Positions 8,470 through 21,481 of a stretch of 64,000 nucleotides of DNA are shown here, one piece after another. This DNA comes from Clostridia bacterium (lineage in GTDB: Bacteria; Bacillota; DSM-12270; Thermacetogeniales; Thermacetogeniaceae), in contig CADDZD010000001.1 in assembly GCA_902812385.1 (NCBI GenBank), positions 1 through 64,000 on the forward strand, in the 5' to 3' direction. The notes below the pieces were generated by a model. The model saw only the letters and a program-made list of their open reading frames with translations, did no database searches and had not been told where the DNA came from. Within the stretch, counting starts at the first letter, position 1. Each line of letters opens with the position of its first letter. The position numbers were made by a program, and so were the translations under genes.

Positions 8470-8736
8470 TTGCAAATAATTCTCGGTGTCATCGTTTTAT
8501 GCGGTATCATTTACTATTTTCTTGCTGCGGCATCAGCAAAACGCCAGAGAACGCGGGTTATCGACCTTCTCGTGGTGGGTTTGTTGCTCTTATTGAGCGG
8601 TTACCTGAAGAAACGGATTCCAGCTTTAGCCCAACTTGATTCCCTGGAAATCGGTGGCCTGCTAATTTTTGCCTACGGCTGGGCAATCCTCATTGTCGAG
8701 AAGTTCCGGGAAGGCCTGCACGATGATCACAGGTAA
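8470..8736 (+). CDS. Small membrane protein, unknown function
   Basis: An 88-aa protein with three hydrophobic stretches: about residues 3-20, 32-47 and 63-78 (LLIFAYGWAILIVE). Basic residues lie between the first two and a charged tail follows. I do not recognise a family. The TTG at 8470 is 9 nt after AGGAGGT (8454-8460). A TTG at 8449 would place the ribosome site inside the gene, so it is less likely. A good terminator follows at 8773. Confidence 0.6.
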   Translation: MQIILGVIVLCGIIYYFLAAASAKRQRTRVIDLLVVGLLLLLSGYLKKRIPALAQLDSLEIGGLLIFAYGWAILIVEKFREGLHDDHR

Positions 8737-8772
8737 AATAGATCTTTCCCGGGTTAAAAGAGTCGTCCAGAG

Positions 8773-8811
8773 CAGAGGCGCCGATGGTACTACAGGCCCT
8801 CTGATTTTTTT
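8773..8811 (+). terminator. Rho-independent terminator
   Basis: CAGAGG (8773-8778) pairs with CCTCTG (8798-8803), with extra GC pairing inside, followed by A and seven T. It closes the small membrane protein gene and separates it from the defence cassette. Confidence 0.7.
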
Positions 8812-8849
8812 GCAACACTAAATATCTCGTTTTTAGGAGGTTTTTAACT

Positions 8850-8954
8850 ATTTTTGGCGAATTGGATATAAGACCCATAAACCAGGGACAAATTATTGAG
8901 CAGCAGGTACCAGGCATGCCTATAATTTATGAGAGCCTGACAATACTGGCTTAA
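8850..8954 (+). pseudogene. Orphan 34-codon reading frame behind a strong ribosome site
   Basis: AGGAGG (8835-8840) is followed after 9 nt by ATT and 33 further sense codons ending at TAA 8952. The reading contains GELDIRPINQGQ and VPGMPIIYES. No ATG, GTG or TTG stands at the proper distance. This may be the 5' end of a gene broken when the downstream cassette arrived, or chance. Together with the promoter-like site at 8896-8926 it is all I see in 8812-9028. Confidence 0.3.
8896..8926 (+). promoter_or_regulatory. Possible promoter of the defence cassette
   Basis: TTGAGC (8896-8901) and a perfect TATAAT (8921-8926) are separated by 19 bp, one or two more than ideal. It is about 100 bp before the first cassette gene. 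Confidence 0.35.
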
Positions 8955-9028
8955 CCAAGTAAGGCCCGATTGGCGGGTGGGCGGAATCCCTTGCTAGGGG
9001 CTTGAAGTTGAGAACAGGGGGATGGACT

Positions 9029-12000
9029 GTGAAATCGGTACGGGAAACATGCCAGCCGCGGCCAGAAATCCTTGCAGGAAATTTTAACCCCGAAGTTTTT
9101 ACGGCATCTCTTAGCCCGATCATGGAGTACTATCGTACCGGCAAAAGTGTTGTCGATAGCATCTATACCAATGCCGAACTCTTTTTTCAGGAGGCAACCT
9201 ATCCCACTCAAGGCCTCAGGTTGACTCTTTCAGAAGTGTTCAGCCGGGTTGCCGGTGACATGACGGTTCCTGCGATCCATCGTTTAGAAACAGCCTTTGG
9301 GGGCGGCAAGACTCATACCCTGATCGCCTGTGCTCATATTGGCTTCAGAGGAACGGAATTGCGCGATGTGATAGGGGATATCCTTGACCCGGCACTCTTG
9401 CCCGAACCTGGCTCTGTTGCCGTCGTGGGAGTCGAAGGCGATAAGATCCCGGTGCATCAACCGAAAGGCGATGCATTGGTGCCGTATACCCTCTGGGGAG
9501 AGATCGCCTATCAAATCGGTGGGGAAAGCCTCTACCGTGCGGTGGAAGAAGAGGCAAGCTCGCTGGCTGCGCCAGGCAAAACATACTTTGAAAGGGTGCT
9601 GGGGGGAAGGAAAGCGATCATCATGCTGGATGAGCTTGCCCAGTATGCGGCACGGCTTGAAGCAGCCCGGCCTGATGGTGCAAACCAGCTTGCTGCCTTT
9701 CTGATGGGGTTGCACAGTTACGTCAGGAACCATCCGGGGATTGCGGTCATCCTCACATTAGCCAGCGCAGCTGATGCCTTTGGAAAACAGACGGAGTTTT
9801 TGGCCAAACTCGTCAGCGAGGTCCGGGGGGAAGAGGTAAGTACAGCCGATGCCTTGGGGATCGGCGAAAGGGCTGTGAGAGGTGTAGCCAGCGTGGTGGC
9901 CCGGGACGCCGTGCAGGTGACACCGGTACATGCGGTAGAGCTTTCATCGGTTCTAGCCAAGCGGCTTTTTTCTTCAATAGATCGCGCTGCTGCTGAAGAG
10001 ACGGCAGAGGAGTATATGGAGATGTATCGCCGGAATGCCAACCTGCTTCCGGATGAGGCTGTGAGTGAGAATTTCAAAAACAGGATGATTGCCAATTACC
10101 CGTTTCACCCCACGCTTGTGGACTTCCTCAACATCAAGCTGGCCAGCGCAGAGAATTTTCAGGGTACGCGCGGGGTGCTGCGGGTGCTCGCTTATGCTGT
10201 TCGCAGCCTGTGGCTGAAGCAGCAGGATGTCCCGATGATCCACGCCTGCCATCTGGATCTCCGGTCAGATCGTGTGGTCAATGAGATCCTCGGGCGGACC
10301 GGGAGTTCGGATATGCTCTTTATCCTCAATGCTGATGTGGGCGGCGTTGATACCGGGGCGCTTGAGGGCGGCTCCAGCAACGCCGAACTTGCCGACCGGA
10401 AGAACCCGCATCCGGAGGGCCATCCCCTTTACGAGTACACATGGAAGACTGTTTTTTTGCACAGCCTGGTAGGCCGGGAAGAAGGTCTGGATTCGAAAAT
10501 CTTCGGCATCACCGAGCCGGAAGCGCTGTTCTCCGTATCTTTCCCCGGTCTCACCCCTCCTCAGGTGCGCATTGCCCTGGAGGAGATCAATGAGAGCGCT
10601 TTTTACCTGCGGTATGACCGGGGGAAATACTTTGCCAGCGAAGAACCGACGATCAACAATATCCTTGCCAGAATCCGCAAGACATTGAAGGCGGAGCAGA
10701 TCGACAACCTGCTCGAAGCGACAGCCCGGAAGGTAATAACCGGCAAAACCGGGCCGTTTCATGTTGAGCATGATGTCTCTTTGCCGGAGCATCTGCCTGA
10801 CGGTAAAGGAAGGCCTGTTTTGGGAGTTGTTTCGCTGACAGCCGAGATCATCGATGTGGAAGCGATGATCACCACAAAGGGCCCCAACAAGCCCAGGGAG
10901 CAACAGAACCTGATTTTTCTTCTTGTTCCTGAGACCGTGGCTGTCCGGAACACAACCCAGCTGCGGGAGGTCTTTCAAGACCAGTTCGACTCGGCGCATA
11001 ATAAAAGGTTGCACCTTGAGAATCTTGCCCGTGAGGTTGAGGCCATGCGCCTCCTGGCTGAAAAGCCTCAGAGCTATGGGCTCAATCCCTCCCGTTTGAA
11101 TGATGCCGATTTTCGCAAACGCAGAACCGAGCGTGAGCAGGCATTGCTGACCGAAGTGGCAAAGATCTATACCAGCCTGTACTACCCTTCTACATCAGGA
11201 AATATCGTCAGGAAGGAGATAAAAACAGCTGGTGGTGAGGGCGGGGTGCCCTTTATTGAGCAGATCCGGGAAATTCTGCTCAGGGACGGAGAGTTGCTGA
11301 CCGATCGCCCCACCACTCAGGCTGATCTTTTGAACCTCAGCAAGCTCTTTTTTGAAAAGAGAGATACCATTGCAATCCAGGAACTGCGGAAAAACTTCTG
11401 CTGCCTGCGCAGTTGGCCGGTTTTGGAGAGTACAGGTGTGCTAGAGCAGATCATCAGGACAGGGGTACAGAGGGGCGTATGGTGCGTTTTCCGGATGGGG
11501 GCTGAGGATAGCATTAAACCGCTCGAGTTTTACGACCGTGATCACGACATCCCCATGGGGGTCAATCTGCTCGATGGAGGCTACAGCCTTGTTACTGTTC
11601 AGGGCGCGAACCAGCGCGGCTGGGCGAAGGCGAGCAAACCCGATCCGGCTAAGGTGCGTGATATTGTTATCTATACTGTGGGGGAGTCGGGACTGGCTAC
11701 GGTGCGCGAGGTATCAAACAACATTGCAGAAAAATACGGGGATGTTCCGCCAGAAGAGATGGAGGAAGTAGTGGTAGACCTCATCAAGAAGGGCCGCTTA
11801 CTGGTCTTTCATGGGAATCCAGACCAGACAGAAAAGCCGGAGCTGATCAGCGGCCCTGCTGCGGCGTTGTATACGCCTCAGCTTGGCGATGTGCTGGTTA
11901 CCCCAGCAAAAGCTGCTGAGTTGGGCTGGATCACACCAGCCCAGCGTGCCTTCACGCTTTCAGGTAAAGAAGGTGCTGATAAGCTTCTTCCGCTCCTGCG

Positions 12001-12256
12001 GCGGCTGGGGAGTATTTACAACAGGGGGGCGAAGTCAACCATTGAAAGCCTGGACCTGGTAGACCTGGAGCTCCCGGAGGGTGGCACGATCCGCATCCAG
12101 CTCACCGGTGCTACACCGGGTTCGATGAAGGCCCTTGGGGAATTGTTTGAGGTATTGGACAGTGTCGTTTCAAGAGGGGAGCATACCGAGGTTTTCCTTG
12201 AAATAGCTGATCCGGATGAAGATTGTCTGTTGATTCAGGAGCTCAAGAAAAAATAG
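9029..12256 (+). CDS. DUF499-family AAA+ ATPase of an anti-phage cassette (BrxC/PglY-like)
   Basis: A 1075-aa cytosolic P-loop ATPase of the DUF499/COG1483 type. Walker A is FGGGKTHT (about residues 90-97) and Walker B is IIMLDEL (about 197-203). AFGGGKTHTL is the usual form of the motif in this family. The related BREX proteins BrxC and PglY are of similar size and are required for phage exclusion. Here the gene leads a four-gene co-directional set with a small protein, a methyltransferase and a nuclease/helicase. The GTG at 9029 has AGGGGG 7 nt upstream, better than the TTG at 9002. The role as the ATP-driven core of the system is inference. Confidence 0.85.
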   Translation: MKSVRETCQPRPEILAGNFNPEVFTASLSPIMEYYRTGKSVVDSIYTNAELFFQEATYPTQGLRLTLSEVFSRVAGDMTVPAIHRLETAFGGGKTHTLIACAHIGFRGTELRDVIGDILDPALLPEPGSVAVVGVEGDKIPVHQPKGDALVPYTLWGEIAYQIGGESLYRAVEEEASSLAAPGKTYFERVLGGRKAIIMLDELAQYAARLEAARPDGANQLAAFLMGLHSYVRNHPGIAVILTLASAADAFGKQTEFLAKLVSEVRGEEVSTADALGIGERAVRGVASVVARDAVQVTPVHAVELSSVLAKRLFSSIDRAAAEETAEEYMEMYRRNANLLPDEAVSENFKNRMIANYPFHPTLVDFLNIKLASAENFQGTRGVLRVLAYAVRSLWLKQQDVPMIHACHLDLRSDRVVNEILGRTGSSDMLFILNADVGGVDTGALEGGSSNAELADRKNPHPEGHPLYEYTWKTVFLHSLVGREEGLDSKIFGITEPEALFSVSFPGLTPPQVRIALEEINESAFYLRYDRGKYFASEEPTINNILARIRKTLKAEQIDNLLEATARKVITGKTGPFHVEHDVSLPEHLPDGKGRPVLGVVSLTAEIIDVEAMITTKGPNKPREQQNLIFLLVPETVAVRNTTQLREVFQDQFDSAHNKRLHLENLAREVEAMRLLAEKPQSYGLNPSRLNDADFRKRRTEREQALLTEVAKIYTSLYYPSTSGNIVRKEIKTAGGEGGVPFIEQIREILLRDGELLTDRPTTQADLLNLSKLFFEKRDTIAIQELRKNFCCLRSWPVLESTGVLEQIIRTGVQRGVWCVFRMGAEDSIKPLEFYDRDHDIPMGVNLLDGGYSLVTVQGANQRGWAKASKPDPAKVRDIVIYTVGESGLATVREVSNNIAEKYGDVPPEEMEEVVVDLIKKGRLLVFHGNPDQTEKPELISGPAAALYTPQLGDVLVTPAKAAELGWITPAQRAFTLSGKEGADKLLPLLRRLGSIYNRGAKSTIESLDLVDLELPEGGTIRIQLTGATPGSMKALGELFEVLDSVVSRGEHTEVFLEIADPDEDCLLIQELKKK

Positions 12257-12284
12257 CACCACTTGGATGATGTGAGGGATGAAG

Positions 12285-12887
12285 ATGACAGGTCAGAAGC
12301 CAGCTCCAGAATGGGAGCTTGAGAGAGTTTTTCAGCAGCGTATCCGCTACCTTTTGCAACGGGCGCCCTGGGTCTTGCGGATAACCGAATTTAAGGATAA
12401 GCCGGCGCCTGTTCTCGTGGTGAAAGAACGGGTTACGATCGAGGAAAAAAACGGTGAGAGTGGGGCAAAGCGGGTGCTCAAGGACCGGGGGCTGCTCTAC
12501 GGGCAGTCCCTGCGCCGTTGTTTACCGGTGATCCGCGCCATCGTCTCCGGCGTCTGCGATGATGCCGGGATCCCCCTTGAGTTGCAGCGCTTCTTTCCTA
12601 ACGGCCGCATCACATTTAGGGGAAATCTCCCCCTTGATGAGGAAGCAGGGGTGAAGCTCGCGCTTATTTTTAAGCTTCAGGAGAGAGTGAAAGAAATGGA
12701 CAGGGTGGAGCTGATCGCCTGGCGGGTGGAGCGCTTCAGCCGGGAAGAAGCCTCGTACTGGCTGACACGGCTGACCCAGTACGGCACGGCGGCCAACCGC
12801 TGGGCGCAGGCAGGGATGCGCCTCATGCTTGGCGGTCAGCCAGGAGACAAGGAAATTTCAAAGATGCTGGAGAGGTTGCGCAGATAG
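12285..12887 (+). CDS. Small partner protein of the DUF499/DUF1156 cassette, unassigned
   Basis: A 200-aa soluble, Arg-rich protein (the start at 12285 is 6 nt after GAGGG; an ATG at 12279 directly abuts that site). I do not recognise the family. It opens with a helical, basic segment, then APWVLRITEF, and later a conserved-looking LPLDEEAGVKLALIFKL helix (about residues 112-128). It ends with a Trp/Tyr-rich part (EEASYWLTRLTQYG). The stop overlaps the ribosome site of the methyltransferase gene, so translation is probably coupled. Similar cassettes carry small proteins such as DUF3780, but I see no convincing match to that family. Confidence 0.75.
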   Translation: MTGQKPAPEWELERVFQQRIRYLLQRAPWVLRITEFKDKPAPVLVVKERVTIEEKNGESGAKRVLKDRGLLYGQSLRRCLPVIRAIVSGVCDDAGIPLELQRFFPNGRITFRGNLPLDEEAGVKLALIFKLQERVKEMDRVELIAWRVERFSREEASYWLTRLTQYGTAANRWAQAGMRLMLGGQPGDKEISKMLERLRR

Positions 12888-12899
12888 GAGCGGTTTGCA

Positions 12900-15800
12900 A
12901 TGCAGGGCATCAAGCTCAAAAATGATCTCCGTTTAATAGAAGCCGGATTTCCCTGCCATCAGGTCGGTGCCGAGACGCAGCGGGAGCGTGATACAGGAAA
13001 GGCACCGCCTACCCATCGCCTCCACGTCTGGTGGGCGCGGCGGCCGCTGACGCCGAGCCGCGCCGCTGTCCTGGCTTCGCTCCTCCCAACCGGGGCCGAC
13101 CCGGACTGGTTCCTGCGCCAGCTGGGGATTGAAAAGGTGCAGGCCCTGGTCAACGGGGAGCCGTGGACGCTGACAGGGCAACTCCGTTGCAAGATAGAAA
13201 CCGACAGCTCCGGAACCGAGTGGCTGCCGGTTGATGAGACCGTTTCCCGGGCGATCGCTGAGGAGCAGAAGCGGAGAGAGAAGAACAGAGAGATCATCCG
13301 CAAGATCTGTGACGCCGATCCCGGCCTTTGCAACCATCCTGTAATCGTACGCTGGCAGCAGGAATCGCAGCCCCTGCCGCGGCCGTGGCCTGCTGTGGGT
13401 GGCCGTCTTCCTGTCCGGAGGGTAGCTGCAGACCCGGCGCATGTGAATGAGCGGATTGAGTTTAGAAAATTGGAAAGAGTGAGAGGAGCGGTTGGTGAAG
13501 ATTTTAAATGGGATGAAGAGGATTTATATGGTTATGGCCGTGCTTATATGCATTATCCAACTATGGATAATAACAATCCTGCAATAATTCTAGACCCTAC
13601 GGCGGGAGGCGGTTCTATTCTCTTTGAGGCCTTGCGCCTGGGCCATAGGGTTGTCGCGAACGAATTGAATCCTGTTGCTGCCATTATCCTTTATGCCACA
13701 CTTGATTATCCTTTACGTTATGGTTTGAAGTTAGCAGATCATATCAAAAGATGGGGTCAAAGTTTAATTGCTGTTTTAAATAATCATATCAGTGATTTGT
13801 TCCCCGATATGTCTCCATTGCCGCCGGAAGAGAAACGCCTTTTGGAAAAACACTTAAGTAAATGTCCAGAAATAGTTTCTGAGTATGATAAGGAATATGT
13901 GATGGACTATTTATATGCCCGTCAGGTCACCTGCCCGCACTGCGGGGGTGAGGCGCCGCTCTTGAACACCTGCTGGCTCTCCAAGGAGGGCGAGAAATGG
14001 GGTGTGCGGATCGTCACCGACGGCAAGCCGAGAGGTGGCAAGGTGCGGTTTGAAACCTACCGGTTCAAGGGCAACCGGGGGCCGAACGGTGAGGCCCTGA
14101 ACTTCGCCACTGTGAAGGGCGGAGTTGGCTTCTGCGTCCACTGCCGGCAGGCCATCCCGGCTGAGGAGATCAAGGCTCAGGCCCGGGGCGAGTCGCCGCA
14201 CGGCAGGTGGCAGGACCGGCTCTACTGCGTCGTGGCCGTGCGCTACCAGCCGAAGCTGGACAAGAACGGGATGCCGCAGCGTTATACCAGCGGGGAAAGA
14301 GCGGGGGAGATCAAGACAGAAAAGGTACGCTTCTTCCGGTCGCCCAACGAGCGCGACCTCCAGGTCCTGGCCGAGGCCGAGAAGCGCCTGCAGGAGCGGT
14401 GGCCGGAATGGGAGCGCCAGGGGCTGATTCCTACCGAAAATATTCCCCACGGCCACAAGACAATGGAGCCATTACGTGTGTGTATGACCCGCTGGTGCGA
14501 TCTCTTCACACCGCGCCAGCTGCTGGGGCACCTCATCCTGGTCGAAGAGCTCAACCGCCTGAAGCCGGAGATCCTCCGGGAGTTCGGGGAGGAGCGCGGC
14601 AGCGCCGTGGTCACATATCTCCAGTTTATGATTGATAAGTGTGTTGATTATAACAGTAAGCAGACTCGCTGGATACCTCAACGTTCCATTGTTTCTGGGA
14701 CTTTTGGAAGGCATGATTATTCTGTAAAGTGGACTTTTGGTGAAATGATCTTAACGGGCCCCTATTCAGGAGCAGCCTGGGGCCTTTCACAGGTTTTAGA
14801 TGCCTACGAAGAGATGGCTGAGTTGTTAAAGCCGCTCCATGAAAGGCTCAATGGTGCCGCTCCGCCTGTGACCATCATGTGCGGCACTGCCGCCCATATG
14901 GATCTGCCTGACCGCTCGGTCGACCTGATCTGTATGGATCCGCCTTATTACAACAATGTCCAGTACGCCGAGCTTTCCGATTATTTCTACGTCTGGCAGC
15001 GGCGCACCCTCTACGACCTCTACCCTGAACTGTTCAGGCGGAGGCTCACCAACAAGGTAGACGAGGCTGTGGCCAACCCGGCGAGGGATGGGTCGGCCGC
15101 TAATGCAGCCAGGGAGTACGAGCGGCTGATGCGGGAGATCTTCGCCGAGTGCCGCCGCGTTCTCAAGGATGACGGCATCATGACCATCATGTTTACCCAC
15201 AAAACTCAGGAGGCGTGGGAAGCTCTGACGCGCTCGCTGATTGAGAGCGGGTGGATAATTACTTCCTCATTTCCAGTTGAATCTGAATTTAAAAATTCAC
15301 AACATATTATGGATAATGCTGCTGCAGCCAGCTCGATCTTTCTGACCTGCCGGAAACGCCAGGATAAGGGCGGTTTGCCGGCTACCTGGACGGGCTTCGG
15401 CGGCACTGGGGTTGCCCAGCGGGTGCGGGAGGCTGTGCGCGAGGGGTTGAAGGAGTTCGAGAAGCTGCGCCTGAACCCGGTCGATGAAATGGTGGCGAGC
15501 TACGGCCGGGCGTTGCGCGTGCTTTCTGAGCACTGGCCTGTCCTGGACGGCGACGAACTGGTGAGCCCGATCCGCGCCATGAACGAAGCCAGTGCCGTGG
15601 TTGCCCAGTACCAGATCAGCCGCCTGACTCAGGGGCGCCTGCAGGTGGACGACCTGAACCCTGAAGCAGCAATGGCCTTGACGCTCTTCGGCATTTACGG
15701 CCTTGCCGATTTCTCCTATGATGAGGCGCTGAACCTCTCCCGTTCCCTGAACATCAGCCTGGAGGGAAAGGCTGCGGGGTATGTCGTCAGCGGGCGGATG

Positions 15801-16145
15801 ATCGGCATCAATAATGAAAGCCAGGGTGGCCGAACCAGGCAGAGCAGGCCTGAGGAGACCGGCTACCATGCCCCTCTCGTCCGCCGGGGGTCGAAATTGC
15901 GCCTTACCCTGCCTGAGGAGCGCAACAAAAGGCGCCTGGAAAATCCGCAGACCGAATGGGATGTCCTGCACGGCCTGATCCTCGCTTACCGGGAGGGGGA
16001 TGTGCCGGTTGCCCGGGCATACCTGACACAGCACGCTGCGGGGCGTGAGAAGGTAATTCTTGATCTGCTTTCCGTTTGGGCAGCAGAGGTCTCCGAGGAA
16101 AAACTGCGCAGAGAGGCGGAGGCCATTATCTTCGGCCTGAAGTAA
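12900..16145 (+). CDS. DUF1156 DNA adenine methyltransferase (PglX-I-like, COG1743)
   Basis: A 1081-aa N6-adenine DNA methyltransferase. The N-terminal DUF1156 signature HVWWARRPLTPSRAA is at about residues 41-55. SAM motif I, DPTAGGGS, is at about 231-238. Zinc-type pairs CPHC (about 344-347) and CVHC (about 412-415) lie in a long insert, and the catalytic DPPYYNN motif is near 680. COG1743 enzymes occur in BREX type 3 as PglXI. Here the enzyme would mark host DNA as self. AGGAG (12886-12890) precedes the ATG by 9 nt. The gene is a composition mosaic: AT-rich blocks at about 13460-13915, 14620-14770 and 15250-15325 lie in a GC-rich background. Confidence 0.9.
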   Translation: MQGIKLKNDLRLIEAGFPCHQVGAETQRERDTGKAPPTHRLHVWWARRPLTPSRAAVLASLLPTGADPDWFLRQLGIEKVQALVNGEPWTLTGQLRCKIETDSSGTEWLPVDETVSRAIAEEQKRREKNREIIRKICDADPGLCNHPVIVRWQQESQPLPRPWPAVGGRLPVRRVAADPAHVNERIEFRKLERVRGAVGEDFKWDEEDLYGYGRAYMHYPTMDNNNPAIILDPTAGGGSILFEALRLGHRVVANELNPVAAIILYATLDYPLRYGLKLADHIKRWGQSLIAVLNNHISDLFPDMSPLPPEEKRLLEKHLSKCPEIVSEYDKEYVMDYLYARQVTCPHCGGEAPLLNTCWLSKEGEKWGVRIVTDGKPRGGKVRFETYRFKGNRGPNGEALNFATVKGGVGFCVHCRQAIPAEEIKAQARGESPHGRWQDRLYCVVAVRYQPKLDKNGMPQRYTSGERAGEIKTEKVRFFRSPNERDLQVLAEAEKRLQERWPEWERQGLIPTENIPHGHKTMEPLRVCMTRWCDLFTPRQLLGHLILVEELNRLKPEILREFGEERGSAVVTYLQFMIDKCVDYNSKQTRWIPQRSIVSGTFGRHDYSVKWTFGEMILTGPYSGAAWGLSQVLDAYEEMAELLKPLHERLNGAAPPVTIMCGTAAHMDLPDRSVDLICMDPPYYNNVQYAELSDYFYVWQRRTLYDLYPELFRRRLTNKVDEAVANPARDGSAANAAREYERLMREIFAECRRVLKDDGIMTIMFTHKTQEAWEALTRSLIESGWIITSSFPVESEFKNSQHIMDNAAAASSIFLTCRKRQDKGGLPATWTGFGGTGVAQRVREAVREGLKEFEKLRLNPVDEMVASYGRALRVLSEHWPVLDGDELVSPIRAMNEASAVVAQYQISRLTQGRLQVDDLNPEAAMALTLFGIYGLADFSYDEALNLSRSLNISLEGKAAGYVVSGRMIGINNESQGGRTRQSRPEETGYHAPLVRRGSKLRLTLPEERNKRRLENPQTEWDVLHGLILAYREGDVPVARAYLTQHAAGREKVILDLLSVWAAEVSEEKLRREAEAIIFGLK

Positions 16146-16162
16146 GTCATTTGTGGGAGCCG

Positions 16163-19100
16163 ATGGGGGGAAAGGACGTGGCGGAAATGGAGGGAAAGTC
16201 AACGGAGTGCAGAGGCCTGCGGTCGCACCGCTGGCTTTTGTCTTATAAGACTTCAGCGACGCTGATCGACGGACGCCCCGTCGATATACTGCACGATTTT
16301 TACATCCCGGCTCTGCAGCTGGCGGTGCGGTATGACCGCGTGGCCGGCTACTTCCGTTCGTCATCCCTTGCTGCCGCATCGATGGGGTTCTCGGCCTTTG
16401 TTAACCGGCGGGGTAAGATGCGGCTGATCGTCGGCGCTGACCTTGATCCGGATGATGTTAAGGCTATTTTGGCGGGGGACCGGGAACGGATGGCGGCGAA
16501 GCTGAATGGCGAACTGGAAGGGGTGGATTCCTGGCCGGAGGGAGTGCAAAACGGCGTGAGGCTCCTGGCCTGGATGGTGGCGCGCGGCTACCTTGAAGTG
16601 CGGGTTGCCTTCCGGGTTCACAGAGAGACAGGGGAACCGCTTCCGCTGGATTCGGTGGAGGACGGCTATGTCCATGAAAAGTGGTTTGTCTTGTATGATG
16701 AGCTCGGCAACCGGCTTTACGGGTCAGGGACCCTCAATGAATCGAAGACGGCGCTCCTCCTCAACGCCGAGAATATAGATATTCACTGCGACTGGTGGGG
16801 GGAGACAGACCGCCGCCGGGTGGAGGAAGCCGTGGAAGCCTTTGAAAACCTGTGGCTGGGCAGGGTTCCCCATCTGCCGGTGATGACCCTGCCGGAAGCG
16901 GTGCGGCGGCGCCTGATTCGGATCGCAGAGGAAACTCCCTGGCCGGTGGAGATCGATGGCAGCAGCGCTGCGCCAGCAATGGAGGAACCCCCATCTGCCT
17001 TGGAACGGTTGTGGTTTGCGGTTTTGCGGGATGCACCGAAAATACCGGGTGGCAGGTTCGTTGGTATGGAGACTGCACCTGTAGAGCCGTGGCCGCATCA
17101 GGCGATCGTCGCCCGTAGGCTGATAGAGACATGGCCGTATTCCTACCTTTTGTGCGACGAAGTGGGCCTCGGGAAGACGATCGAAGCCGGGCTTGCCTTT
17201 CGCTCCCTGTACCTGTCGGGGCTGGTGAAGCGGATCCTGATTGCTGCACCGGCGAGCCTGACAAGGCAGTGGCACCGCCAGATGGCCTCGAAGATGTTGC
17301 TTTCCTTCGGTTTGGTACACACCGCTCCTGATATCTGGCATGAGTATATCTTCCCGCGCCAGGAAAGCCGCGCTGCAGCATCGATTTTTGAGCCGGATCT
17401 GGTGATTGTCTCGACAGGGCTGCTGGCGCGCCGTGAGCGGGCAGAGGCATTGTTAATGGCAGAGCCGTTCGACATCGCTCTTGTGGACGAGGCGCACGCT
17501 GTCCGGAGGCGCAACCCCGGCGGGGGAACCGAGGCACAACCGGACTTCGGCCACCTCTACACATCCGTCCGGGATTATTTGCGGAAGAGGGCACGCAGCC
17601 TCTGGCTGGCTACTGCCACTCCGATGCAGATCCACCCTGTGGAGGTCTGCGACCTGTTGGCGCTGACAAATCGCGTGGGTGCCTTCCAATTCGACCCGAC
17701 ACTGGTTTTGCAGTATTATGAAATTCTCAGCAAGCTTGTACACAAACAGGAGCCGGGAGAAGAGGAATGGAAATTTCTGCGGCGCAGTGTCCAGGCTGTC
17801 CAAATGCAGGATCCCATGCTGTGGCGCTTTGTTGAGGAGAACGTTGTAGACGGCAGGATCCGTGTGGCGCTCAGCCAGTGGCTTGAGTACGGCCGGATTC
17901 CTAAGGGGAGAGACCGTGAACTGATGTGCCGCCTGTTCTTCAGTGTTTCCCCTCTTTCCCGGGTGATGTTCAGGCACACCAGACGGCTCCTGGAGATCTA
18001 CCGGGAGAGGGGGCAGTTACAGCAGAACCTCCCTAAGCGCCATCTCCTGCCAATACCCCGCATTGTCTTTGATCCTCTGGAGCGGGAAATCTACGATGAA
18101 TTGGAAGAATACTGCCAGGGCCTGGCAGAGAAGATCAATAAGAACGGTGACCCCCAGTCGCGGCAGATGGTGAGCTTCCTGTTGAGCTTCCTGCGGCTGA
18201 GGTTTGCTTCCAGCCTCTATGCTCTGCGGGAAACGCTGAAGCGGCGCCTGCAAAAGGTCGAAGCAACACTGCGGCAGCAGCTCGTCCTGGAAGCAGATGA
18301 AGCAAAGGTTTCCTCTCTCCAGGAATTGGTGTATGAAAGCGAAGATGAAGACGACCTCCAGGCTGCAGAATCCCTCTTGAAGAACCGGACAAGAGAAGAC
18401 CTGGAATGGGAGCAGGCCTGCCTCAAAAGGATGATCGACAAGATGGCCGACCTGACCGGCTCTTCGTCGAAGATGCGAGAGCTTTTAAAAAGACTGGACC
18501 AGCGCCGTGACCCCAAAACGAAGCGCATCCGCCAGACCGTTATCTTCACCCGTTTCTACGATACTCTCAAGGACATAGTCTTTCGGTTGCGCCAGGCTGA
18601 CCCATCGATGCTGCTCGGCACATATTCTGGACAGGGTGCCGAATATTATGATCCTGTTAGCCGGAGAATGAAGCAAGTAGATCGTGAAGAGGTAAAGGAG
18701 CGCTTTCTGCGCGGGGAGATCGATGTCCTGGTCTGCACCGACGCTGCGGCAGAGGGCCTGAACCTGCAGACAGCTGACCTGCTTGTCAACTTTGATCTGG
18801 GCTGGAATCCCATGAAAGTTGAACAGCGGATCGGGCGAATTGACCGCATCGGGCAGAAACATGAAGAAATCTCCATCCTTAACCTCTGCTATGCCGACAG
18901 CGCAGAGGAGATCGTTTACGGGCGCCTGCTTGCGCGGCTGGAGCAGGCAAGCCTGATCGTCGGCACCCAGCAGATTTCTCTCCTTCCTGTAGATCCGGAG
19001 GACTTTCGCCAGCTGGCTGAAGGAACGCTCACACCAGAGGAGCTGTATGTCCGGGCATGTGAGCGGCTTGAGCAGAAGCGCAGGAACACAGAGAGCATGG

Positions 19101-20086
19101 AGATCGATCCCAGGGATCTCTATGAAGTCTACATGCGCATGTCACGGTTATCTGAAGGCAAACCGCCTGTTGATCTGAGGGCGATCTGGGAGGCGCTGAG
19201 TGGCTCCCAGTACCTGCAGCGTTTGGGATGTGCTGTGTCGGCTGAGCCGGACAAACCAGTGATCACCTTGTCTGGGATTGAAGGGGTTCCCAATGGGGCA
19301 GTCCTCACAGTTTCAAGGGAGCTCTACGAGGAAGGGATGACAGATGATGGAGGAGACCGGCTGCATTTTGCTTCCTACGGCGACCCCTTTTTCGAAGCGG
19401 TTTTGGAGCAGTTTGGCCGATTTGAGCTTCCACGGTGCATCCGGCGGATCGCTGTCTCTGTTGCTGGCATCGATGGTGTCGAGATGGTTGGTTATGCGGC
19501 AGTCTGCCAGGGGCCAGGCGGCATGCGCGAGGTGCAACTCATCTGTGGCTGGAGCGACCTGAAGGACATCCAGCTCATGGAGGGTGAATCCCTAAATGAG
19601 GAGGAGATCAAACCGTTAAAAGAAAAGCTGGAGATGATAGCCCGTAACGAATTCATGCCTTATCTTGCGGCAAATCGGATCGAACGGGATAATCTCCGTG
19701 CTGCCAGAGCAGAAGAACTACTCAACCTCTTTGTGATCCAGAGCCTGCTTAAGGCTAGGGCAGGATCTAAGGGAGAGGAAACGCTTTTCTGGCCCATTCT
19801 CCGGGAAGTTGCTGTTCTCTATGAAGATCGAGAAAGGATCATTGTAAACGACCTGCCGGCGGATGTCTTCAGGCCTGTTGCCGGGGATCTGCTTTTCGAG
19901 TGCCAGGTTCCTGCTGTTGGGGATATGGCCAACATTTTAGTGCCGCGGCTCTTGGCCCGCTCGGCGATGGATGCCGCCAGCCGCATCGCAGACGGCATGA
20001 AGCAGAAGAAGAGCGAACTTCGTCTCGATGCGGTTTTAGCGCGCCTGCAGCGTGAAGCAGAGACCAGGCGTCAGGAAAACAATTAA
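16163..20086 (+). CDS. PLD-domain/SNF2 helicase fusion protein of the defence cassette
   Basis: A protein of about 1307 aa. The N-terminal part is a PLD-like nuclease domain with HEK...D (about residues 171-179) and GSGTLNES (about 187-194). The spacing HxK-x5-D is one longer than the textbook HxK-x4-D. A full SNF2-type helicase follows: DEVGLGKTIE (motif I, about 332-341), APASLTRQW (Ia), LVDEAH (II, about 440-445), TATPM (III), and VCTDAAAEGLNLQ to QRIGRIDRIGQ (V-VI, about 858-895). A coiled, charged region and a C-terminal tail complete it. The start is uncertain: ATG 16163, GTG 16178 or ATG 16187. It likely translocates on DNA and cuts non-self DNA, by analogy with DISARM and BREX helicases. 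Confidence 0.88.
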   Translation: MGGKDVAEMEGKSTECRGLRSHRWLLSYKTSATLIDGRPVDILHDFYIPALQLAVRYDRVAGYFRSSSLAAASMGFSAFVNRRGKMRLIVGADLDPDDVKAILAGDRERMAAKLNGELEGVDSWPEGVQNGVRLLAWMVARGYLEVRVAFRVHRETGEPLPLDSVEDGYVHEKWFVLYDELGNRLYGSGTLNESKTALLLNAENIDIHCDWWGETDRRRVEEAVEAFENLWLGRVPHLPVMTLPEAVRRRLIRIAEETPWPVEIDGSSAAPAMEEPPSALERLWFAVLRDAPKIPGGRFVGMETAPVEPWPHQAIVARRLIETWPYSYLLCDEVGLGKTIEAGLAFRSLYLSGLVKRILIAAPASLTRQWHRQMASKMLLSFGLVHTAPDIWHEYIFPRQESRAAASIFEPDLVIVSTGLLARRERAEALLMAEPFDIALVDEAHAVRRRNPGGGTEAQPDFGHLYTSVRDYLRKRARSLWLATATPMQIHPVEVCDLLALTNRVGAFQFDPTLVLQYYEILSKLVHKQEPGEEEWKFLRRSVQAVQMQDPMLWRFVEENVVDGRIRVALSQWLEYGRIPKGRDRELMCRLFFSVSPLSRVMFRHTRRLLEIYRERGQLQQNLPKRHLLPIPRIVFDPLEREIYDELEEYCQGLAEKINKNGDPQSRQMVSFLLSFLRLRFASSLYALRETLKRRLQKVEATLRQQLVLEADEAKVSSLQELVYESEDEDDLQAAESLLKNRTREDLEWEQACLKRMIDKMADLTGSSSKMRELLKRLDQRRDPKTKRIRQTVIFTRFYDTLKDIVFRLRQADPSMLLGTYSGQGAEYYDPVSRRMKQVDREEVKERFLRGEIDVLVCTDAAAEGLNLQTADLLVNFDLGWNPMKVEQRIGRIDRIGQKHEEISILNLCYADSAEEIVYGRLLARLEQASLIVGTQQISLLPVDPEDFRQLAEGTLTPEELYVRACERLEQKRRNTESMEIDPRDLYEVYMRMSRLSEGKPPVDLRAIWEALSGSQYLQRLGCAVSAEPDKPVITLSGIEGVPNGAVLTVSRELYEEGMTDDGGDRLHFASYGDPFFEAVLEQFGRFELPRCIRRIAVSVAGIDGVEMVGYAAVCQGPGGMREVQLICGWSDLKDIQLMEGESLNEEEIKPLKEKLEMIARNEFMPYLAANRIERDNLRAARAEELLNLFVIQSLLKARAGSKGEETLFWPILREVAVLYEDRERIIVNDLPADVFRPVAGDLLFECQVPAVGDMANILVPRLLARSAMDAASRIADGMKQKKSELRLDAVLARLQREAETRRQENN

Positions 20087-20506
20087 CTCATCAAGCGGTC
20101 ATGCCGCAATCTCTTCCGGAGAAAGGAACTCGGTCAGGATCGCCTCCGAGGTGGTCCCGAAGACGTCGCTCAGCACCTTGTCCTGGCAGATGGTATGAAC
20201 TTCAGGAACAGGTTGTTCAGGAAGCAGTTCTTCTCCCAGAATCTGGTTAGCATCTGCAGGGGCAGGTACGTACACAATACAGGTGATTTCGAACGGTCGA
20301 AACGGAAGGTTTAGGGAATGTGGTGGTGCTGTTCTTCGAAGCGCAGGATTTCATCCTGTAGAGGTGCTGTTGTTAATTCTACGTGAAAAATTTAGTCCTC
20401 TTTTCTTTTTGAGTTAATATTTTTGACATTCCATAAGAAACCAATGAAGGAATTTATTATATTTTTGCCGAAATCTTGAAAAAAAAACGGAAAAGAGGTT
20501 CTCCAG
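20087..20506. other. Gene-poor right flank of the defence cassette
   Basis: These 420 bp hold the IS110-like remnant on the minus strand (20099-20230) and more stop-broken sequence to about 20350 that looks like further gene debris. An AT-rich stretch then runs up to the next gene. TTGACA at 20423 has no -10 box at the right distance. I see no terminator for the helicase gene. Confidence 0.6.
20099..20230 (-). pseudogene. Degenerate IS110-family transposase fragment
   Basis: Read on the minus strand, this stretch gives LLPEQPVPEVHTIC, then KVLSDVFGTTSEAIL and LSPEEIAA before a TGA at 20099-20101. The pattern FPE...SDVFG.TS...L....PEEIA is familiar from the middle of IS110-type (DEDD) transposases. 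A second frame over the same bases reads NNLFLKF, pointing to a frameshift, and a one-base loss would explain the final stop. There is no complete copy and no terminal repeats (IS110 elements usually lack them). The family call is from memory of the pattern. Confidence 0.45.
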
Positions 20507-21450
20507 ATGAATGAGAACAATAAAGAAACCTTCTGTAACCGGGAAGCGGAAGATCTGTGCGTACAAAAAGCTGGGGTTGATAAAAGCTCCGGGAAGTCTG
20601 CCGCAAACAGGAAATGGCTTGTTTTCGGTTTGTTGTTGGTGTTCTTTGGTGCTTTTGTAGGATTGCAAATGTGGGGCAGCGGGGAGTTTCAGAAGAGCAT
20701 TAACCGTACTGAGCAGGATGTCCGAAAGTTAAACGAAAGGTTGAGATTGCTTGAAAATACTGCTGGAGAGCGAAATGTTTTAGCTTTTCTCAGTGATATT
20801 GAATCTTTGAGCAAACAATGCCAGGGAAAAGTGCAAACACTGGCGGATTTGAAGAGGCAGTGGTGGTTTGTTCTGCCGTTTTTGAAAAAAAGGAAGCTGT
20901 GAGTCAGGAACTCTCTGACCTTCAAAAGAAATTGAATGAAACGCTTGCCGTCCTGCCCACAATAGAAGCATTTGCCGGACGCTTAAAAGAAACGGATAGT
21001 AATATAGCCGGAGTTATGGATGCCATCGGAACGGCGGATGCCGGGAGCATGATTGTGGAACTGGCTTCTTTTATAGAGGACAGCAATGTTTTGCGGAAGG
21101 ATATTGAACGTATGCAATGGCCGTCAGCAATGTTGCCCTTTAAAGAGGCCTTTCTCACAGCTTTAGATGAAAGGGATGCAGCCCTTGCTGCACTGTTGGC
21201 GGCTTTGGATTCTGCAGCTAAAGCAAGTAGTTTTGCGGAGCAAGCAGTCGATACATACATAATGGCGTGGTCGATCTGGGATTATCAGGATGTGCTGAAT
21301 TATCTACAGGCAAGCGATGAATACAGCAGCCAGGCGGAAGGTTACATGGCAGAGTTTGAGTTTCATACGGCCAGATACCTCAAAATCCGTGACCGTCTGA
21401 TAGAGGGGAGCACCTCTGAAGGTGAGGCCACTAAAGAAGCAAAAATATAG
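20507..21450 (+). pseudogene. Membrane-anchored coiled-coil protein split by a -1 frameshift at an A7 run
   Basis: The first frame (20507-20902) encodes a cytosolic N terminus, one membrane segment (about residues 37-55) and a Glu/Arg/Leu heptad-like stretch. The second frame continues to 21450 with more coiled coil (SQELSDLQKKLNETL) and a helical Ala-rich tail. They join near 20885-20891, where the first frame runs TTG-AAA-AAA-AGG and the other frame is -1. The later frame has no ribosome site of its own near 20818. Joined, the protein has about 314 aa. The cause could be a true deletion, a homopolymer sequencing error, or slippage on A7. No family is recognised. A hairpin with a T-run follows at 21452. 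Confidence 0.6.
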
Positions 21451-21451
21451 C

Positions 21452-21481
21452 GGTTCGGGGTTTAAGCCGCCGAATCTTTTT
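21452..21481 (+). terminator. Probable terminator after the frameshifted gene
   Basis: TTCGG (21454-21458) pairs with CCGAA (21470-21474), and TCTTTTT follows. An alternative GCGG/CCGC pairing overlaps it. The remaining bases to 21680 contain no gene I can see. Confidence 0.5.

Follow-up and report, generated by a model that had tools for sequence, protein, structure and literature searches.

The window analyzed here comprises the first 64,000 nucleotides of contig CADDZD010000001.1 from a Clostridia bacterium (Thermacetogeniaceae; assembly GCA_902812385.1), and it contains a cassette of four genes on the forward strand, at positions 9029–20086. The genes encode, in this order, a DUF499 ATPase, a small DUF7680 protein, a DUF1156 DNA methyltransferase, and an SNF2 helicase with an N-terminal phospholipase D (PLD, or HKD) domain. 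They lie on a single strand and are separated by gaps of 22, 12 and 17 bp. The preliminary description of this DNA had recognized four co-directional, tightly spaced open reading frames (ORFs) and the motifs FGGGKTHT, DPTAGGGS and DPPYYNN, and its coordinates and motif assignments are correct. The second protein, which it had left as an unassigned 200-residue product, has 202 residues and belongs to DUF7680 (PF24728, E = 1e-37).

The first gene (9029–12256, GTG start, 1075 residues) encodes an ORC/Cdc6-like AAA+ ATPase, similar to BrxC. Pfam recognizes DUF499 (PF04465, 4e-30) and a DUF7744 domain at the C terminus, and the Walker A motif FGGGKTHT is located at residues 90–97 (9296–9319). The DUF7680 gene follows at 12279–12887. 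The third gene (12900–16145, 1081 residues) encodes a COG1743-type adenine-N6 DNA methyltransferase, with matches to DUF1156 (PF06634, 2e-15) and N6_N4_Mtase (2e-9). Its motif I (DPTAGGGS, residues 232–239, 13593–13616) and motif IV (DPPYYNN, residues 680–686, 14937–14957) are intact, and CxxC pairs are found at residues 345 and 412. The fourth gene (16163–20086, 1307 residues) encodes the PLD-SNF2 fusion, the predicted translocase-nuclease effector. Pfam finds Helicase_C (4e-20) and SNF2 (2e-7) in it and makes no call for the PLD part in the window copy. The NCBIfam model phospholipD_antiphage aligns from residue 41, and the HKD signature HEKWFVLYDELGNRLYGSGTLNES is located at residues 171–194 (16673–16744), by motif match and conservation alignment.

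The pattern H-x-K-x5-D ... G-x2-NES is found by regular expression in all 55 helicases of DUF7680 type that were examined, and the residues that define it (H, K, D, G, N, E, S) are identical in 39 of 39 aligned sequences. Among the four proteins of the conservation alignment, mean identity is highest for the methylase (0.60, compared to about 0.50), and no fast-evolving target-recognition region is seen as such in it. Variation is greatest in the ATPase C terminus, in methylase residues 101–225 and 276–325, and in the helicase C terminus.

The distant relatives of the cassette in NCBIfam are the anti-phage-associated DUF499, DUF1156 and PLD-helicase families, and all three large proteins score far below the cut-offs of these models (158 of 1200 bits for the ATPase, 216 of 1000 for the methylase and 318 of 1100 for the helicase). 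The PADLOC models HmaC (3e-68), HmaB (4e-69) and PLD_Helicase are also matched. NCBIfam and PADLOC give no assignment for the 202-residue protein, and neither DUF7680 nor DUF7744 is mentioned in the literature searched. An Rfam search of the window gave no matches.

The cassette is located in an acquired island

The cassette lies in a variable island (8726–21471) between thioesterase-side genes and lexA that has no match in the sister genome G028. The identity to G028 (95–97%) ends at 8725 and restarts at 21472, on two different G028 contigs. The GC content of the cassette is 0.566, compared to 0.484 in the left flank and 0.473 in the right flank. With its foreign GC content and its absence from the sister genome, the cassette is a horizontally acquired island. 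A search of the island edges for direct repeats (10 bp or more) gave none. The flanks consist of housekeeping genes, with lexA on the right. Inside the island, two overlapping ORFs in different frames (20507–21450) have no Pfam match; one is membrane-anchored and coiled-coil-like, and the pair may be one frameshifted gene.

Conservation across genomes

Among 398 sampled genomes of the phylum, DUF7680 is found in 19, and DUF3780 likewise in 19. The order DUF499-DUF7680-DUF1156-PLD/SNF2 is observed in all 19 DUF7680 loci, including the window, as far as the contigs extend, and the arrangement is not due to chance. A scan of GTDB species genomes finds 77 further DUF7680 loci, in Bacillota, Desulfobacterota-type and gamma-proteobacteria, Planctomycetota, Synergistota, and other taxa. 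All four genes are present in 47 of these, 18 are cut by a contig end, and 12 are of other kinds. A shorter DUF7680 protein, found through Pfam, fills the same slot in plasmid cassettes of Aminobacter and Rhodococcus (L216 and L217), where the slot gene is annotated merely as a hypothetical protein. Searches of plasmids and INPHARED phages with tblastn, using the window protein (P0002) or a prophage copy (L139), gave no DUF7680 and are insensitive, since Pfam later found the plasmid copies. A first viral scan with the window protein as the only query also gave none.

The DUF3780 loci have a gene layout identical to that of the DUF7680 loci, and one genome (G132) has both cassettes, as two separate loci. 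In comparison, the Hma-like loci of the same phylum have the order helicase-methylase-ATPase and lack a slot gene. A second, apparently truncated set of this Hma-like type is located on another contig of the window's own genome (C38; L233, 877–5754), and the sister genome has a full-length one (L220).

Other defence genes are embedded between the genes of the DUF7680 operon in relatives, including Abi_2, Schlafen-AlbA, AAA_21 with RloB, and GmrSD. The loci concerned (L142, L055, L150, L159, L163, L172, L176 and L177) resemble the Hma-embedded candidates (HEC genes) that have been described (PMC12111858).

Relation to known defence systems

The preliminary description had placed the cassette next to BREX type 3 and DISARM. 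The nearest systems are instead the DUF499-centred BREX-related (BR) and Hma systems (PMC12839542, PMC8565338). BR systems were defined by Rakesh & Krishnan 2026 (PMC12839542), and DUF499 neighbourhoods had been noticed earlier (PMC3710099, PMC7641849), including an SNF2-PLD nuclease fusion in DUF499 operons (PMC7641849). Type-1 BR corresponds to the Hma trio of PADLOC (PMC8565338), and its helicase carries a C-terminal restriction endonuclease (REase) domain (PMC12839542). Type-2 BR has DUF3780, stand-alone in 98% of the published loci, and a helicase in which an N-terminal HKD nuclease replaces the TUDOR domain; Type-3 BR has PglZ and iSTAND (PMC12839542).

The cassette has the gene order, the domain layout and the lack of PglZ of Type-2 BR (NF042962–NF042964), with a DUF499 ATPase, a DUF1156 N6-methylase and an N-terminal HKD domain on the SNF2 helicase (NF042964, 318 bits over residues 41–935). 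There are differences, however. The slot protein of the window matches DUF7680 only, and DUF3780 was not found in its genome. The three large proteins, all under the Type-2 cut-offs, are each in a separate clade, and the ATPase falls outside the Type-2 clade in quick trees with some long branches. The C terminus of the ATPase is DUF7744, without the Fn3-type match seen in locus L061. By domain content and gene order, the cassette is a variant of the DUF499-centred class, with a Type-2 BR layout and of a DUF7680 lineage.

The Hma (HmaABC) systems share the homologous ATPase, methylase and helicase as well as the embedded extra defence genes. The cassette is not one of them, as its gene order is different, it has a slot gene, and its helicase carries the HKD motif, which the helicases of Hma-like loci lack at their N terminus. 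It is not a Type-3 BR system either, with only four genes and no PglZ in the genome.

BREX type 3 shares a BrxC-like ATPase, a PglXI-like methylase and a BrxHII-like helicase with the window. On the other hand, the window set lacks PglZ, has four genes only, and has its PLD domain fused to the helicase, and Pfam assigns DUF499 and DUF7744 to the ATPase and not the DUF6079 of BrxC in that system. DISARM has an SNF2 helicase (with a DrmD-like core), a PLD protein and a methylase, whereas the window operon has a DUF499 ATPase and no separate DrmA, DrmB or DrmC gene. DrmA and DrmB (DUF1998) are both absent from the four genes; the DrmA model matches the window helicase (P0004) only through the common helicase core, far under the PLD_Helicase score. 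The absences of PglZ, DrmA and DrmB reported in the preliminary description are thus borne out, in the case of PglZ for the window's own genome (92% complete).

A BREX type 3 or DISARM system that has lost pglZ/brxL or drmA/drmB would also contain these ATPase, methylase and SNF2 families and would account for the weaker matches to the DrmD, BrxHII and PglXI models. However, the same pglZ-free set of four genes is present in 19 of 19 loci of the phylum sample. PglZ is found neither within nor near any DUF7680 operon, and only distant copies exist, in 5 of 18 genomes. Moreover, the catalytic motifs examined (PLD and methylase) are kept across the loci. A degraded system was rejected on the absence of PglZ and the recurrence of the fixed set, and we consider such an origin scarcely credible.

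In trees of the ATPase, methylase and helicase, the sets with long DUF7680, short DUF7680 and DUF3780 and those with the order helicase-methylase-ATPase are each confined to one side of a branch. Long branches part the DUF3780 from the DUF7680 systems in all three trees, which are reliable for this separateness and not for the order of splitting. The DUF7680 systems look like a separate, undescribed lineage.

Comparison of DUF7680 and DUF3780

The AlphaFold2 models of DUF7680 and DUF3780 (pLDDT of 85 and 75, respectively) have the same order of elements, in which a small antiparallel sheet precedes a long helix and a C-terminal helical bundle, and this also agrees with how DUF3780 has been described in print. 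Fold searches with DUF7680 against the Protein Data Bank (PDB) and viral libraries, and with DUF3780 against the PDB, gave nothing significant. Profile comparisons align the C-terminal helices of the two families in register. The short DUF7680 clade matches the DUF3780 profile with p = 0.0025, better than 55 of 55 decoys, whereas the other DUF7680 profiles give p values of 0.015–0.24, matched by decoys. The two families are likely homologous, judging from models and profiles. An assignment of DUF7680 as plain DUF3780 was not accepted, given the p values outside the short clade. As they occupy the same operon slot, the two proteins may be functionally equivalent.

Slot proteins occur alone in phages

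The slot protein is also found without any other cassette gene, in four phage or prophage settings for DUF7680. Two are in prophage regions, of an Armatimonadetes bin (L131:9953-10507) and of Thermoactinomyces daqus (L139:9986-10501), and each of these genomes contains a DUF7680 cassette locus as well (L125, which a contig end interrupts, and L169, respectively). The other two are on IMG/VR contigs, one next to Erf, SSB and helicase genes (L254:4908-5546) and one next to DNA methylase, resolvase and tail genes (L255:4941-5558). The tree requires four changes, at least three of them forced by well supported branches, and indicates several independent captures by phages.

DUF3780 is present on 31 viral contigs, on nine of which no ATPase or methylase is located within 2 kb (L190, L199, L200, L201, L209, L210, L211, L213 and L214; one is cut by a contig end). 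The phage nature of L199, L200, L210 and L214 is given by the IMG/VR label alone. Several of these genes lie next to others for replication, recombination or packaging, and their neighbours include terminase, RusA, Sak4 and exonuclease VIII. An isolated phage, Proteus phage vB_PvuS_Pm34, also carries DUF3780 alone, as gp4 (L321:1105-1620; PF12635, 9e-70), between lysis and packaging genes. These phage-borne slot proteins were not found noted in PMC12839542.

The single genes could be functionless remnants of cassettes carried as cargo, and complete cassettes do occur on viral contigs, of DUF7680 type on one (L253) and of DUF3780 type on about 20. However, the four DUF7680 copies are intact ORFs that match PF24728 and keep 22–25 of the 25 near-invariant residues, and they differ from the cassette forms mainly at the third codon position (44/17/87 by position, L139 compared to L169). 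In the same viral collection, 9 of 30 DUF3780 copies are intact and stand alone, compared to 0 of 66 matches to the three large genes (ATPase, methylase, helicase) from that clade, the control covering the DUF3780 clade only. The few single matches to the large genes are all fragments or at contig ends. The Fisher p value is 1e-5, or 0.008 once lineages are collapsed, and both are indicative only, as the matches share contigs and the search patterns were not equally sensitive. With the several independent captures as well, decay is an unlikely explanation.

A lone restriction subunit is of no obvious gain to a phage, so it would either interfere with the host complex or divert it to the use of the phage. 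The near-complete set of conserved residues is what a working subunit would show, and the phage copies may then be helpers that recruit or stimulate the host methylase to act on the DNA of the phage, or that stand in for a limiting subunit. On the other hand, two of the four DUF7680 copies lack the β2-β3 loop and the N terminus of the cassette form, comparable to AcrIB3, an experimentally tested viral Cas5 mimic in which a functional element is missing (review PMC13131331). We regard the helper role as possible and rather doubtful. AcrIB3 and AcrIB4 are likewise phage-borne, each a homologue of a single defence-complex subunit (PMC13131331). They differ in acting on CRISPR and in having been tested experimentally; the slot proteins belong to a different system and are known from sequence. 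In our interpretation, the slot protein would serve as an adaptor or sensor, and phages would have copied it as a subunit-mimic inhibitor.

A model for the function of the cassette

In the model that we propose, the DUF1156 methylase would place N6-methyladenine marks at a motif in the host DNA, and the DUF499 ATPase would survey DNA with DUF7680 as adaptor or sensor. Unmarked DNA would trigger the SNF2 translocase and be cut by its N-terminal PLD domain. Phages copy the slot protein by itself (DUF7680 for this cassette, DUF3780 for Type-2 BR), and the copies would probably poison or bypass the complex. The earlier proposal of a self-contained restriction-type system, with the methylase marking self DNA and the PLD-helicase attacking unmarked DNA, gains support from the gene content, the conservation, the absence of PglZ and the horizontal acquisition; the biochemical steps themselves, as well as the anti-defence role of the phage copies, are what we infer. 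Overall, the cassette is probably an acquired anti-phage system of the BR/Hma class that resembles restriction-modification and forms a separate DUF7680 lineage, with the mechanism and the role of the slot protein as proposed.

Several points weigh against this. The cassette is a lone island amid housekeeping genes, outside any defence island. Activity against phages has been reported only for Type-1/Hma members (PMC12839542), and for the DUF7680 lineage the anti-phage role is predicted from sequence. A methylase and a helicase might also serve to regulate DNA or to mark it, with no role in defence, and the strong conservation of the methylase (0.60) says nothing direct on restriction. An epigenetic or plasmid-control module would be consistent with a lone island near lexA. 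However, the PLD nuclease residues are fully conserved, defence genes are embedded in the operons of relatives, phages carry the slot protein, and related Hma members are reported to be active (PMC12839542). Such a module is therefore quite improbable, and an anti-phage function remains the preferred reading.

A broader proposal is that slot subunits are a recurrent phage counter-defence, captured time and again from the cassettes of hosts and expressed alone as mimics that disable the DUF499 complex or redirect its methylation, and that the DUF7680 cassettes make up a fourth BR lineage, hitherto undescribed, with a frequency in the phylum similar to that of Type-2 (19 compared to 19 of 398 genomes). 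We put it forward tentatively, as somewhat short of an even prospect.

The missing partner of a widespread defence cassette can now be named as DUF7680. Where current NCBIfam and PADLOC models recognize the genes of this cassette at all, the scores are far below cut-off. Taken by itself, the cassette is moderately interesting, and the phage-borne slot proteins add to this. Small, present in defence operons, and found alone in isolated and environmental phages, the slot protein may be the subunit that phages attack, and it would be the most informative part for how BREX-related systems recognize DNA and how phages beat them.

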